Part shown: piece by piece, positions 13,148 to 56,003 of the stretch
How positions within the stretch are numbered: the first letter of the stretch is position 1
Layout of the letters: every line of letters begins with the position of its first letter
DNA from: Salinisphaeraceae bacterium
Lineage (GTDB): Bacteria; Pseudomonadota; Gammaproteobacteria; Nevskiales; Salinisphaeraceae
Direction of reading: 5' to 3'
DNA: 64,000 bases
Assembly: GCA_002683405.1 (NCBI GenBank)
Contig: NYTH01000057.1
Span: forward strand, 1 to 64,000
Program-made: the position numbers and the translations under genes
Notes under the pieces: model-generated
The model's database searches: none
What the model was told of the DNA's origin: nothing
The model's input: the letters and a program-made list of their open reading frames with translations, nothing else

Positions 13148-13192
13148 GGCCGCCGATCAATCTCAATCGCCCACCACGCAAGGGGGAATGCT

Positions 13193-13600
13193 ATGACCGG
13201 CTTTGAAATGACGATCGCACTCTGGTGCGTGCTGATCGCCGCCTACATGCCGCTGCTCTGGACCGCAGCCGCCAAGTTCGGTGGCCCGGAAAAGCTCGGG
13301 CCGGCACAGAACAAGAACCCGCGGGCCTTTCTGGCGACCCTCACCGGGGCGCAGGCCCGCGCCAACGCGGCCCAGCAGAATGCCTTCGAGGCGTTTCCGC
13401 CGTTTGCCGCGGCGGTCATCATTGCGGAAATGGCGGGCGCCGCGCAGGGCTGGGTCAACACGCTGGCAATGGCGTTCATTGCGTTCCGGCTGGTCTACGG
13501 CGGCCTGTACATTGCCGATCTGGGTATTCCGCGGTCGCTGGCCTGGTCGGGCGGCGTAGTCTGCGTGGTCCTGCTGTTCGTTGCCGCCGCAGGCGCCTGA
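13193..13600 (+). CDS. MAPEG-family integral membrane protein
   Basis: Member of the family that includes microsomal glutathione transferases and leukotriene synthases. The 135 residues show four hydrophobic segments and the family signature NPRAFLATLTGAQARANAAQ followed by QNAFEAFPPFAAAV. It lies 45 bases after the dehydrogenase pair, and its stop codon directly touches the GTG of the nitrilase-like gene, so all four genes are likely one operon. Whether it conjugates glutathione is not shown by the sequence. Confidence 0.85.
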   Translation: MTGFEMTIALWCVLIAAYMPLLWTAAAKFGGPEKLGPAQNKNPRAFLATLTGAQARANAAQQNAFEAFPPFAAAVIIAEMAGAAQGWVNTLAMAFIAFRLVYGGLYIADLGIPRSLAWSGGVVCVVLLFVAAAGA

Positions 13601-14611
13601 GTGCAGACCTCCGCCGGGGTGATCGAGTGCGCCGCGGTGCAGATCGCGGCAGAGCCCGGCCGACTGCAGGCCAACCTGCAGCAGGTCGAGCAGCTGGCTC
13701 GCGAGGCCTTTCAGACCGGCGCCAGGCTGGTCGCGCTGCCTGAGTTCTTCACTTCATCGCTTATTACCGGCGCGCCGACGGCCGAAGCGGTGCTGCCGGC
13801 CGGCGACAACGACGCGCTCGATCTGCTGACGGCGCTGGCGCGCGAGTACCAGGGCGTGATCGGCGGCTCGTTCCTGGTGGCGGAGCAGGGCGAGATCTAC
13901 AACCGTTACCACCTTGTGGAAGCCGACGGCAGCGTGCACACGCACGACAAGGACCTGCCCACCATGTGGGAAAACGCCTTCTACACCGGCGGGCAGGACG
14001 ACGGCGTGTTCGATACCGGCCTGGGCGGTATCGGTGCGGCAGTCTGCTGGGAACTGATTCGCTATCAGACGGTGGCGCGCATGCGAGGCCGGGTGGCCCT
14101 CGCCATGACCGGCACCCACTGGTGGACGATGCCCGCGAACTGGCCCGTGATCCGGGACCTGCTGGGGCCGCTGTCGCAGTACAATCGCTATCTGTCCGAG
14201 CAGGCGCCCGTGGAATTCGCCCGTCTGCTGGGTGCGCCGGTGCTACAGGCCAGCCACTGCGGCGAGATTCAAGGCGCCTTCCATCTGTTGCCCCGCCCGA
14301 ATGTCCGCCTGCGGTACGCCACCCATTTCGTGGGTGCCACCCAGATCGTCGATGCGGCCGGTCATGTTCTGGCCAGCCGGAGTACGGCGGATGGACCGGG
14401 AATCGTGCGAGCAGCGATCACCCCGCAATCCAGATCGCCGGTCCGCCCGGCGGAGTCGGGCCGCTTCTGGATTCCGCGCCTGCCGGCCTTTCTGCAGGCC
14501 TACTGGCATCACCAGAACTGGGTGGGTCGAGGGCTGTACGCCCGCCACGGACGTGAGGCCGGACTGCGAGCGGCGGCCGACCACGCCGCCGAAAGACAGC
14601 CGGCCCGATAG
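13601..14611 (+). CDS. Carbon-nitrogen hydrolase (nitrilase superfamily)
   Basis: Amidase/nitrilase-fold enzyme. The catalytic Glu-Lys-Cys triad is visible as Glu48 (LVALPEFF), Lys117 (HTHDKDLPTMWE) and Cys149 (GAAVCWELIRYQ). It starts with GTG immediately after the MAPEG stop codon, so translation is coupled. The 336-residue length suits aliphatic amidases, carbamoylputrescine-type hydrolases or nitrilases; the substrate cannot be assigned. It is the last gene of the dehydrogenase/MAPEG unit and converges on the LysR gene at 14664. Confidence 0.85.
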   Translation: MQTSAGVIECAAVQIAAEPGRLQANLQQVEQLAREAFQTGARLVALPEFFTSSLITGAPTAEAVLPAGDNDALDLLTALAREYQGVIGGSFLVAEQGEIYNRYHLVEADGSVHTHDKDLPTMWENAFYTGGQDDGVFDTGLGGIGAAVCWELIRYQTVARMRGRVALAMTGTHWWTMPANWPVIRDLLGPLSQYNRYLSEQAPVEFARLLGAPVLQASHCGEIQGAFHLLPRPNVRLRYATHFVGATQIVDAAGHVLASRSTADGPGIVRAAITPQSRSPVRPAESGRFWIPRLPAFLQAYWHHQNWVGRGLYARHGREAGLRAAADHAAERQPAR

Positions 14612-46432: not shown

Positions 46433-47239
46433 CTAGATGCGTTCGAAATCCCCGTGCCGCCCTGCGCCGGCGCTGAAACGCCCCGCGCCCGCCGTGCCCT
46501 CATTGGCCACGGCATCGATCCCGTTGGCCCATTCCAGGCGCAGGGCTTCGCGCACCGGCAGGCCCCGGGTTTCGATGATGGACCGACGGTCAGCCCGCAC
46601 GGCCTCCTGTGGAAAGCGCGCAATTTCTTGCGCCATGGCTTCGGCGGCCGCGCGCGTGCCGCCGGGTTCGACCACCTGTTCGCACAGTCCGATTCTATAG
46701 CACTCCTCGGCGGGTACCTGGCGGCCGGTCATGGCGATTTCCAGCGCCTTGCCCTGGCCGACGAGCCGCGGCAGTCGCACGGTGCCTCCGTCCAGTAGCG
46801 GAATACCCCAGCGCCGGCAGTACACGCCCAGATAGGCGTCTTCGGCCATGATGCGGATGTCGCACCAGAGCGCCAGCTCCATGCCGCCAGCCACCGCCGG
46901 GCCTTCGATGGCGCCGATCACCGGCTTGGACAACTCCAGCCTCGAAGGGCCCAGCGGGCCACGGGTGGCGGGGGCCGAACCGATGGGGAAGTTCAGGTAC
47001 TCGAATTCCTTCTTGCGCTTTTCCGGGTCGGCCAGCGACGCGGCAAACTTCAGGTCCCAGCCCGCGCAGAAGCTGCCGCCCGCGCCCCAGAACACGGCGG
47101 CGCTGGCGTCGCTGGCCTGGAACTCCCGGAAAGCCGCGGTAAGGGCTTCCGCGGCTTCCGGGTCGACGGCGTTACGCGCTTCGGGGCGGTTGTGGATAAT
47201 GGTCCACACGGCACCCTGTTTTTCGATTTCGACGGCCAT
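46433..47239 (-). CDS. Crotonase-family protein (enoyl-CoA hydratase/isomerase-like)
   Basis: 268 residues with the crotonase fold: oxyanion-hole strands WGAGGSFCAGWDLK and EGPAVAGGMELALWCD. Glu121 matches the first catalytic Glu of enoyl-CoA hydratase (Glu144 in rat). The second (Glu164) is replaced: the block reads LGVYCRRWGIPLLDGGTVRL with Cys141 at that place. It is therefore probably not a normal hydratase; an isomerase, hydrolase or other crotonase reaction is more likely. It converges on the TetR gene. Confidence 0.88.
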   Translation of the reverse strand: MAVEIEKQGAVWTIIHNRPEARNAVDPEAAEALTAAFREFQASDASAAVFWGAGGSFCAGWDLKFAASLADPEKRKKEFEYLNFPIGSAPATRGPLGPSRLELSKPVIGAIEGPAVAGGMELALWCDIRIMAEDAYLGVYCRRWGIPLLDGGTVRLPRLVGQGKALEIAMTGRQVPAEECYRIGLCEQVVEPGGTRAAAEAMAQEIARFPQEAVRADRRSIIETRGLPVREALRLEWANGIDAVANEGTAGAGRFSAGAGRHGDFERI

Positions 47240-47275
47240 ATCGGCGTTCCTCTGCGGTTTGTGTCACATGGTTGT

Positions 47276-47408
47276 GTAGGTCGGGTAGAGGTGCACCCGA
47301 AACGCCACATATCCGAATACCTGATTGGACCGTACCGGCTGATTTTCTGCTCGGTCCGGCGACGGCAGATGGGCCATGTCGGATTTCGCTTTGCTCTATC
47401 CGACTTAC
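47276..47408. repeat. Element with 15-base inverted ends next to the broken Rieske gene
   Basis: Left end GTAGGTCGGGTAGAG (47276-47290) and right end CTCTATCCGACTTAC (47394-47408) are complementary at 13 of 15 positions. The right end contains CGGATTTCGCTTTGCTCTAT, resembling the core of the REP-like family elsewhere in the window. The element fills the crotonase-Rieske gap and touches the Rieske stop codon. Confidence 0.55.
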
Positions 47409-48532
47409 TAGATGCGTTGTCTGACCTGTTCGTTGAAGCGGGCGAGCGCGCCTTCAAAACGGCCGAAGTTCAGCACCGTGTTGGCGCCGGAGTCCAGCCC
47501 GGACTGAATGCTCTGGGCAATTTCGAAATCCTCGGTCAGGGTTTTCACGGTAAATGCGTGGTTCTTCTGCCAGTACGTGTCCGGCCGCGCGGATTCGCGC
47601 GGCACCAGTGTGGCCACGCGAATGCGGGTCTGGCCGGCAGACAGGGGTTCGTTGCGAATCCAGACCACGTGGTCGGACTGCACCAGCAGAGAATTGCTCG
47701 GAAAAATCGTGTACAGCAGGTTGCTGCACTCGCGGATATCCCACTCATCCTCCGGCTTGTCCTGGAGTTGCAGCAGGCCGGCGCGCGGCAGGATGGAGCG
47801 GAAGTTGGGACCGAAGCACTGGTAGCTGGACAGGTTGTCGTTGAACAGCCGGGCGATGGTGTCGCGATGGGTCACGCGAAAGTGATAGGCCTCCAGCCCG
47901 CCTTCGACCAGCAGTTTCCAATTGGCCTGCCAGAGTTGTTCTTCGGCGGCGAATAGCCGCAGGCCCCGTGTGCCGACCCACGCCAAATCCGGCGCCAGCC
48001 CGGCAAGATACGCATCGATGTCCGTGCTGCCATGCTCCGGCAGCAGCCAGATGAAGCCGTGGCGCTCGACGCAGGGCAGGGGCTTCAGGCCCAGGCTGTC
48101 CGCTTCCAGGCCGGGAAAACCGGCCTCGAAATGCGGTGCGCCGACAAACTCGCCGCGACTGTTCCAGGTCTAGGCGTGGTAGGGGCAGGAAAAGCGCCTC
48201 TGGCAGCCGGCGTCGGCATCCACCAGCCGTGTGCCGCGATGGCGGCATACATTGAGAAACACGCGGGCCTGGCCGTCGTCCCCGCGCAGCAACAGCATGG
48301 GCCGGCCGTGCAGATTGCTGCGCAGAAAACTGTTGGGGCCGTCGAGTTCGCTGCCGTGCGCCAGCATGACCGGATGGGCGGCGAAGATGCCGGCCCGCTC
48401 ACTCTCGAAACGGGTCTCGCTTATGTAGTCTCCCACCAGATTGGTTGTCGTGTGCTCGTCGAGGAACAGGGCCTTGCGCTCCTTGAGGCCCAGCAATTCC
48501 TGCAGCAAGCCGATTTCTTCCGCGCGTTCCAT
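47408..48532 (-). pseudogene. Rieske ring-hydroxylating oxygenase alpha subunit with in-frame amber stop
   Basis: The frame from 48532 to 47408 would give a 374-residue oxygenase but is broken by TAG at 48170-48172 (codon 121). Before it: a Rieske cluster with Cys96/His98 (CRHRG) and Cys116/His119 (CPYHA). After it in the same frame: TWNSRGEFVGAPHFEAGFPG and the iron-site helix EGGLEAYHFRVTHRD. In relatives the residue after CPYHA is Trp (TGG), so one base change made the stop. ATG 48532 is preferred over 48538 because TAGGA then sits seven bases upstream. Inactive unless read through, or a sequencing error. Confidence 0.85.
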
Positions 48533-48540
48533 GAGCATGT

Positions 48541-48556
48541 CCTACCAAGTGGTAGG
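48541..48556. promoter_or_regulatory. TetR-type operator 1, overlapping the Rieske ribosome site
   Basis: CCTACCA-AG-TGGTAGG, perfect arms. Immediately upstream of the Rieske start; its last bases also form the ribosome site. Its centre is 26 bases from that of operator 2. Confidence 0.7.
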
Positions 48557-48566
48557 TATACTTTTG

Positions 48567-48582
48567 CTTACCAACTGGTAAG
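48567..48582. promoter_or_regulatory. TetR-type operator 2
   Basis: CTTACCA-AC-TGGTAAG, perfect arms, same core as operator 1 (YTACCA-N2-TGGTAR). It lies 29 bases before the divergent TetR gene, which very probably binds both sites. Confidence 0.72.
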
Positions 48583-48611
48583 CTGTCAAGGCTTAATCAG
48601 CGGAACAAGGC

Positions 48612-49211
48612 ATGGAGACTGCCATCGACACCCGCCAGAAATTCATCGAAGCCGCGCTGCGCCTGTTTGCGGACAAGGGTTTTTACGGCGCCAGCATGGA
48701 TCAAATCGCGGGCGAGCTGGACATGACCAAGCAGGCGCTCATCCATCATTTCGGTACCAAGGAAAAGCTGTACCGCGCCGTACTGGCGCAGATTTCCGAG
48801 CGGCTGCTGAAGCAGGTCAATAACCAGCAGGCCGACAGCGGCGCATCGGGCAAGAACGCCTTTGCCGACGCCATCCAGCGCCTGTTTGAGCACACGCTGA
48901 CCTATGCCGACGACACCCAGCTGTTGATGCGAGAATTGTTGGACAACAAGCGCCGCGCCGCGCAAGCCGAGGTCTGGTATTTGCGGCCCTTTCTCGAAGA
49001 GCTGCGCAGACTGTTGATGCAGACGCCGGCCTGGGCGCAGGCCGATGAAGCCCAGGCGGCGGCACAGGTATACAACCTGCTGGGGGCCATCAACTACTTC
49101 GCGGTATCGACCACCACGCTGGAGCAGATGTATTCCGCCCGGCACGTCGCGGCGTTGCGGGCCGAGTTCCCGCAACGGCTGCACAGACTTGCGCAAACGC
49201 CGCCGGACTGA
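48612..49211 (+). CDS. TetR-family regulator divergent from the Rieske gene
   Basis: 199 residues: helix-turn-helix LFADKGFYGASMDQIAGELD then MTKQALIHHFGTKEKLYRAV. The C-terminal ligand domain resembles CerR/YbiH-type (TetR_C) regulators. It faces the Rieske pseudogene across 79 bases that hold two matching palindromes, so autoregulation and control of the oxygenase are likely. It converges on fadA. Confidence 0.9.
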   Translation: METAIDTRQKFIEAALRLFADKGFYGASMDQIAGELDMTKQALIHHFGTKEKLYRAVLAQISERLLKQVNNQQADSGASGKNAFADAIQRLFEHTLTYADDTQLLMRELLDNKRRAAQAEVWYLRPFLEELRRLLMQTPAWAQADEAQAAAQVYNLLGAINYFAVSTTTLEQMYSARHVAALRAEFPQRLHRLAQTPPD

Positions 49212-54734: not shown

Positions 54735-56003
54735 TCAGTCCAGATCGAGCGCTTCGCGCGCCGAGCCGGACTCGACCCATTTGCGAATCACCGCGTTGGA
54801 GTGGCGAATAAGCATTTCCCCATCCTGCAGGTGCATATGCGTCTTGGCGCCCGACTCCATGGCTCTCTGTTGGGCCTGCGTATTGGTCACGTCCTCGAGC
54901 ATGACTTCGGCGAAGCGGCAGGCTAAGTGTTCCTGCATGATGCGCTCGCGCACGCTGGTGGCTTCGGGGACGTGCACGCGCAGTATCCAGCGGGTCGAGT
55001 TGACGGACGTTGGCCAGAATTCGTGGGTCCAGAAGCCGCCCGGCCCGTAGTCGATATTGAAGTTGGGGAATATCCAGCTGACATCCGCGCCCCAGTTGGG
55101 CCGCTTCGTCGGGTTGGCTGCCGGATGATTGGCCAGGTCCTGCAGTTTTTTCGAATCCGAGCCGCCCAGCACGTTGCCGGTGTCCATGCCGCTGTAGGCG
55201 AGCCGCTCGACGTGGGCGTCCTCCGGGGGCACGTAGTCCGGGTTGCCGAAGGTGCACATCACCCGGTGCGCGCCGTAAGCGTGCCCCGAAAGCGGTCGGC
55301 CGAAGGGGTTCAGGCTCTTGCTGGCAAACGTGTTGCCGATGGTCGCCGGATGAATGGCGGCCACGTGATAGGACTCGGCAAAGGCGTCGGCGATCTGCTT
55401 CCAGTTGACGTTCAGGTTGGATTCGATGACGTATGCGTTGTCGGCGAACGGATAGGGAAAGCCCTCATAAGCCTCGGCATAGGGGCCCAGGAATTCCCTG
55501 AGCGTCACTTCGGGCTCGGCCTGCAGGTTGATGAAGATGAAGCCTTGCCACACGTCGCAGTGAATTGGCGTGAGGCCGCACTGCTTCTTGTCGACACCGA
55601 AAAAGTTCTTGATGTCCGGAATGCCCGTGCAGTCACCGTTATTGCGGTAGGTCCAGTTGTGATAGCGGCAGTTGAAGATGCTGCGCTTGCCGCTGGATTC
55701 GGTGACCAGCATGTTGAGCCGGTGGGAGCAGACGTTGTGAAACGCGCGGATGTTGTCGTCCTTGTCCCGCGTGATGAGCACCAGCGCCTTGCAGATTTCC
55801 ACCTCGCGGGTAATGAAACTGTTGGGCTCGGGCAGTTGTTCCACGCGGCCCATGCACAGCCAGGCGCGGCCAAACACCCGCTCGCGCTCGAGTTCGAACC
55901 AGTCCGGCGAGATATACGGCGCGCAGGGGACGGGACCGGTGTCGAGGTCGGCGGGTGTCATGCGGGCGAAATCGGGTCTTGCGGTTTCCGTGTCGTAGGC
56001 CAT
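54735..56003 (-). CDS. Rieske non-haem iron oxygenase alpha subunit
   Basis: Ring-hydroxylating oxygenase large subunit, 422 residues. Rieske cluster ligands Cys92/His94 (VCSHRLNM) and Cys112/His115 (NCRYHNWTY). Catalytic iron site in NWKQIADAFAESYHVAAIHP (two His; the carboxylate comes from a later Asp). Last gene of a leftward unit after a tautomerase and a 122-residue protein. No ferredoxin or reductase gene is adjacent, so electrons come from elsewhere. Substrate probably aromatic or polycyclic. Confidence 0.92.
   Translation of the reverse strand: MAYDTETARPDFARMTPADLDTGPVPCAPYISPDWFELERERVFGRAWLCMGRVEQLPEPNSFITREVEICKALVLITRDKDDNIRAFHNVCSHRLNMLVTESSGKRSIFNCRYHNWTYRNNGDCTGIPDIKNFFGVDKKQCGLTPIHCDVWQGFIFINLQAEPEVTLREFLGPYAEAYEGFPYPFADNAYVIESNLNVNWKQIADAFAESYHVAAIHPATIGNTFASKSLNPFGRPLSGHAYGAHRVMCTFGNPDYVPPEDAHVERLAYSGMDTGNVLGGSDSKKLQDLANHPAANPTKRPNWGADVSWIFPNFNIDYGPGGFWTHEFWPTSVNSTRWILRVHVPEATSVRERIMQEHLACRFAEVMLEDVTNTQAQQRAMESGAKTHMHLQDGEMLIRHSNAVIRKWVESGSAREALDLD

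Follow-up and report, generated by a model that had tools for sequence, protein, structure and literature searches.

The 64,000-nt stretch of Salinisphaeraceae DNA analyzed here (hereafter, the window) contains a Rieske oxygenase alpha-subunit-type gene on its minus strand (47411–48538), which consists of 376 codons and is broken at codon 123 by a premature TAG (48170–48172, minus strand). This amber codon is the sole break in the frame, which is open from the ATG at 48538 to codon 122 and again from codon 124 to codon 376, and which is followed by its ordinary stop (47408–47410, minus strand), a TAG with a TAA behind it. An alternative start, the ATG at 48532, corresponds to residue 3, the position at which the alignment of most relatives begins. 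The initial annotation of this DNA had placed the stop at codon 121 of 374, which is the same codon counted from this second ATG, and it correctly described a frame that is intact on either side. The amber codon lies immediately 3′ of the last Rieske ligand (CPYHA-stop), and going from TGG to TAG at this site takes a single transition. No in-frame ATG lies 3′ of the premature stop, and a possible start is first reached 61 codons downstream, so the catalytic part does not resemble a gene of its own. A sigma-70 consensus scan of 47200–48700 gave no promoter-like site; a TTGACA hexamer 5′ of the oxygenase was noted by eye only. Elsewhere in the window there is a second Rieske-domain gene (55605–55862, minus strand, in an open frame of 432 aa), in which the Pfam search shows no internal stop. 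The tetranucleotide CTAG is strongly under-represented in the contig (C57, comprising the window and L150–L156), with 52 occurrences vs 153 expected, and the amber codon lies inside one of them.

Read through the stop, the predicted protein matches the Pfam domains Rieske (residues 56–138; 56.3 bits, above the cut-off) and Ring_hydroxyl_A (residues 203–375; 92.2 bits vs a cut-off of 24.9). The ligand motif of Rieske [2Fe-2S] clusters is CxH...CxxH, and all four ligands (C98, H100, C118, and H121) are present in the interrupted oxygenase; H100, C118, and H121 occur in 50/50 relatives and C98 in 49/50. Residues H219, H224, and D337, which we take to be the two histidine and one aspartate ligands of the mononuclear iron, are likewise kept, both here and in all 50 relatives. 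The cluster ligands thus precede the stop and the iron-site part follows it, as had been proposed at the outset. With both the ligands and the catalytic domain in place, the gene is, judging from its sequence, a Rieske non-haem iron oxygenase of the alpha-subunit type. Its catalytic (mononuclear-iron) domain is encoded solely 3′ of the premature stop.

Divergent from the oxygenase lies an intact TetR-family regulator gene (48612–49211, plus strand; 199 aa), whose product is 60% identical to the TetR beside the oxygenase of L010, the nearest relative. The gap between the two genes holds two operator-like perfect inverted repeats with the core TACCANNTGGTA, located 26 bp apart: CCTACCA-AG-TGGTAGG (48541–48556) and GCTTACCA-AC-TGGTAAGC (48566–48583). 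No other TACCANNTGGTA word occurs in the 185 kb contig, and such sites are also found upstream of relatives. A divergent TetR homolog is encoded within 500 bp in 41 of the 53 relatives that share 44% identity or more, and the exact core occurs within about 250 bp upstream in 26 of them, while for 45 more distant relatives these counts are one and zero, respectively. The initial annotation had called the regulator and its operators perfect, and both are indeed undamaged and conserved in many relatives. The TetR protein may well bind these candidate TACCANNTGGTA operators, and the TetR/Rieske cassette is, by these counts, widespread. Judged by titles and abstract openings, none of the papers listed by our literature searches describes the cassette or its operator.

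At E 1e-20, 100 of the 106 loci align across the amber site, of which two are the queried gene itself; the six loci without such an alignment are other Rieske genes of the same genome. All 98 others have tryptophan (TGG) at this position, and none shares the stop, in agreement with the earlier expectation that TGG is the family codon and against the possibility, raised with it, that homologs would have a stop here. These 98 comprise 97 loci from other genomes and L002, a paralog of the same genome with 33.5% identity. The 97 combine 17 loci from one collection with the best 80 of 475 relatives from another (the collections were not de-duplicated). The 80-locus set leans towards tryptophan here, as this residue was part of one of its six search patterns; the 17-locus collection was found without such a pattern and also has tryptophan throughout. 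None of 16 other genomes of the family Salinisphaeraceae gives a match to the oxygenase at 1e-90, with a distant match (32% identity) in one of them, G009. The nearest kin are 58–60% identical and come from other families of the order.

Apart from its stop, the gene shows no sign of decay. Conservation was assessed against 50 relatives with undamaged, full-length frames and at least 44% identity, yielding 72 columns with a conservation of 95% or more. One of these is the amber codon, entered as W, leaving 71 informative columns, of which 23 precede and 48 follow the stop, and the interrupted oxygenase deviates at none of them. In a leave-one-out comparison over the same columns, 17 of the 50 other rows are also without deviations and the three nearest kin show 3, 1, and 3, so the interrupted gene looks like an intact copy, neither better nor worse. 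Its end branch (0.40) resembles those of the three nearest kin (0.38, 0.30, and 0.46), and the parts on the two sides of the stop are about equally identical to these kin (before/after: 61/60%, 57/58%, and 63/59%). Counting a new stop or an amino acid change at a conserved column as visible, and assuming a transition weight of 2, the neutral divergence accumulated since inactivation has a rough ceiling of ~1.7% (95%, substitutions only), or ~1.0% (95%) when 0.1 indels are assumed for every substitution; an error, whose age is zero, would lie under this ceiling just as well.

We consider it probable that a real, very recent nonsense substitution inactivated this standalone, TetR-controlled Rieske oxygenase gene. 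The frame is disrupted where 98/98 aligned relatives have a sense codon, as in a nonsense pseudogene, and the base itself is presumably real in the organism. A single, very recent change from TGG to TAG would end translation after 122 residues, within the Rieske domain. The truncated product would keep the four [2Fe-2S] ligands and lose the rest of the Rieske domain as well as all of the catalytic domain with its mononuclear iron; it is presumably dead, and we expect no active enzyme. The conserved columns, the ordinary branch length, and the intact regulator and operators support recency, towards which the initial annotation had leaned. An error in base calling or assembly, which has zero age, would account for all of this evidence just as well.

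That annotation had also offered readthrough as an option, in which the TAG would be decoded (by a suppressor tRNA, pyrrolysine machinery, or context-driven readthrough) and the full enzyme made. The part 3′ of the stop looks fully constrained, which would suit this explanation, and bacterial in-frame stops that show conservation across species and purifying selection have been reported (PMC7918605). The decoding machinery of the genome argues against it. A search for amber suppressor tRNAs, one of the checks that had been suggested, found no CTA anticodon among 43 tRNA genes (loci L107–L149; Rfam tRNA model, with ARAGORN on their loci). In bacterial genomes, tRNA-Ile(GAT) and tRNA-Ala(TGC) are usually located in rRNA operons; both are missing from this set and were probably lost with unassembled rRNA operons, and because the draft therefore lacks some stretches, the lack of a suppressor should not be taken as absolute. 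Release factor 1 (RF1) is intact (535.2 bits). Pyrrolysine was rejected as a candidate: PylS_Cterm gives matches of 29.1 and 21.6 bits only, against a cut-off of 178.15, and the same model gives matches in 13 of 14 control genomes, passing the cut-off in one. In a sample of 583 kb from three contigs, TAG terminates 118 of the 440 coding stretches, a count that includes the premature stop, and it also ends the oxygenase gene itself; its common use as a normal terminator in this sample speaks against genome-wide reassignment. Together with the lack of a stop at the amber site in any of the 98 relatives, these sequence data make readthrough unlikely, and we give decoding of the TAG into a full enzyme very little credence. 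A variant in which a near-cognate tRNA reads the amber codon at a useful rate, providing low, tunable amounts of full-length enzyme under TetR control, would still let selection act on the downstream part and so allow its undamaged state; we regard it as extremely improbable. Thus, among the options first put forward, recent mutation is supported, while readthrough is made unlikely by the tRNA set, the intact RF1, and the ordinary use of TAG.

It is possible, although on the whole we think it unlikely, that the stop reflects a fault in sequencing or assembly, or that the consensus took up a minority variant from a mixed population; the real gene would then be intact. An error would be expected to leave just this picture, one substitution with the rest of the gene and its regulation undamaged, and the assembly is a draft in 58 contigs. 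Three of the 53 relatives with 44% identity or more contain a stop or frameshift: L043, with an early TAA (633–635) in a Henriciella bin, and L076 and L103, which are frameshifted copies. In L039, a Henriciella copy, one Rieske cysteine is missing (C98 replaced by W), and one of 44 TetR homolog loci (L046) has a stop. All five records are titled MAG (metagenome-assembled genome), which tips the balance towards error for these five and suggests that assembly faults may be a common cause; recurrent loss and assembly error are both ordinary among relatives of this oxygenase. Against an error stand the completeness (99.11) and contamination (0.2) of the source genome, and the result of the suggested search for other in-frame stops, which found no second convincing interrupted frame among the 440 coding stretches in 583 kb; the sampled assembly is therefore not rich in such errors, although the search covers stop-type breaks and would miss those followed by a chance start. 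Of 55 same-frame neighboring pairs in this sample, 47 have an earlier start, and eight, those inspected singly, lack a start codon within 20 codons of the stop. Only two of these eight, the Rieske oxygenase and C8:29122–30981, show a clear coding signal immediately 3′ of the stop. In the latter, part two matches DUF815 from residue 76 and part one has no Pfam match at E 1e-6, and it reads as two neighboring genes. Within the window, the pair at 13148–14608 was also rejected as a break, since a GTG directly follows the stop and, by eye, these are two ordinary genes. If the mutation is real, it might have arisen at a methylation hotspot: the plus-strand sequence around 48170–48174 has a CCAGG-type context, the classic hotspot of Dcm-dependent deamination. 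The genome has no match to a cytosine-5 methylase (PF00145) or to Vsr (PF03852), whereas the same searches find these in 10/14 and 5/14 control genomes, respectively, and the contig is only slightly depleted in CCAGG and CCTGG (0.90 and 0.81 of expectation, respectively). This origin was therefore rejected and seems barely plausible to us, even allowing for a methylase that has been lost or is unassembled.

Returning to a recent nonsense mutation as the preferred explanation, a real base would mean that one oxygenase activity has probably been lost by the strain only recently. In an annotation pipeline, the interrupted gene would end up split or dropped. The case is ordinary, being that of one disabled or mis-called catabolic gene, and the cassette may be a more useful by-product than the stop itself. 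The combination of this oxygenase subfamily, a divergent TetR, and TACCANNTGGTA operators, at loci titled Gamma- and Alphaproteobacteria, would provide a regulatory handle for finding the substrate.

Compared with characterized enzymes, the interrupted oxygenase has its best solved-structure match by sequence in the carnitine monooxygenase CntA (6y9c and 6y8j; 1.5e-26, residues 38–224). Its best NCBIfam match is the glycine betaine monooxygenase GbcA, at 97.4 bits, far under the equivalog cut-off of 670 bits and too low for an assignment to GbcA. The best matching stretches to these CntA/GbcA-type enzymes span only about half of the protein. With the readthrough-type stops of PMC7918605 it shares an in-frame TAG in a conserved gene; there, stops were accepted only if they occurred at the same site in at least two genomes, whereas the oxygenase TAG was seen in one genome only. 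As for recoded TAG codons in general, no amber-decoding tRNA was found, RF1 is present, and the stop is kept in 0/98 relatives. With bacterial nonsense pseudogenes, the gene has in common a lone in-frame stop, in a frame that is conserved elsewhere, and the fact that none of the other loci examined has a stop at that site. It differs from them in being without further decay, and would therefore be either a very young loss or an error.
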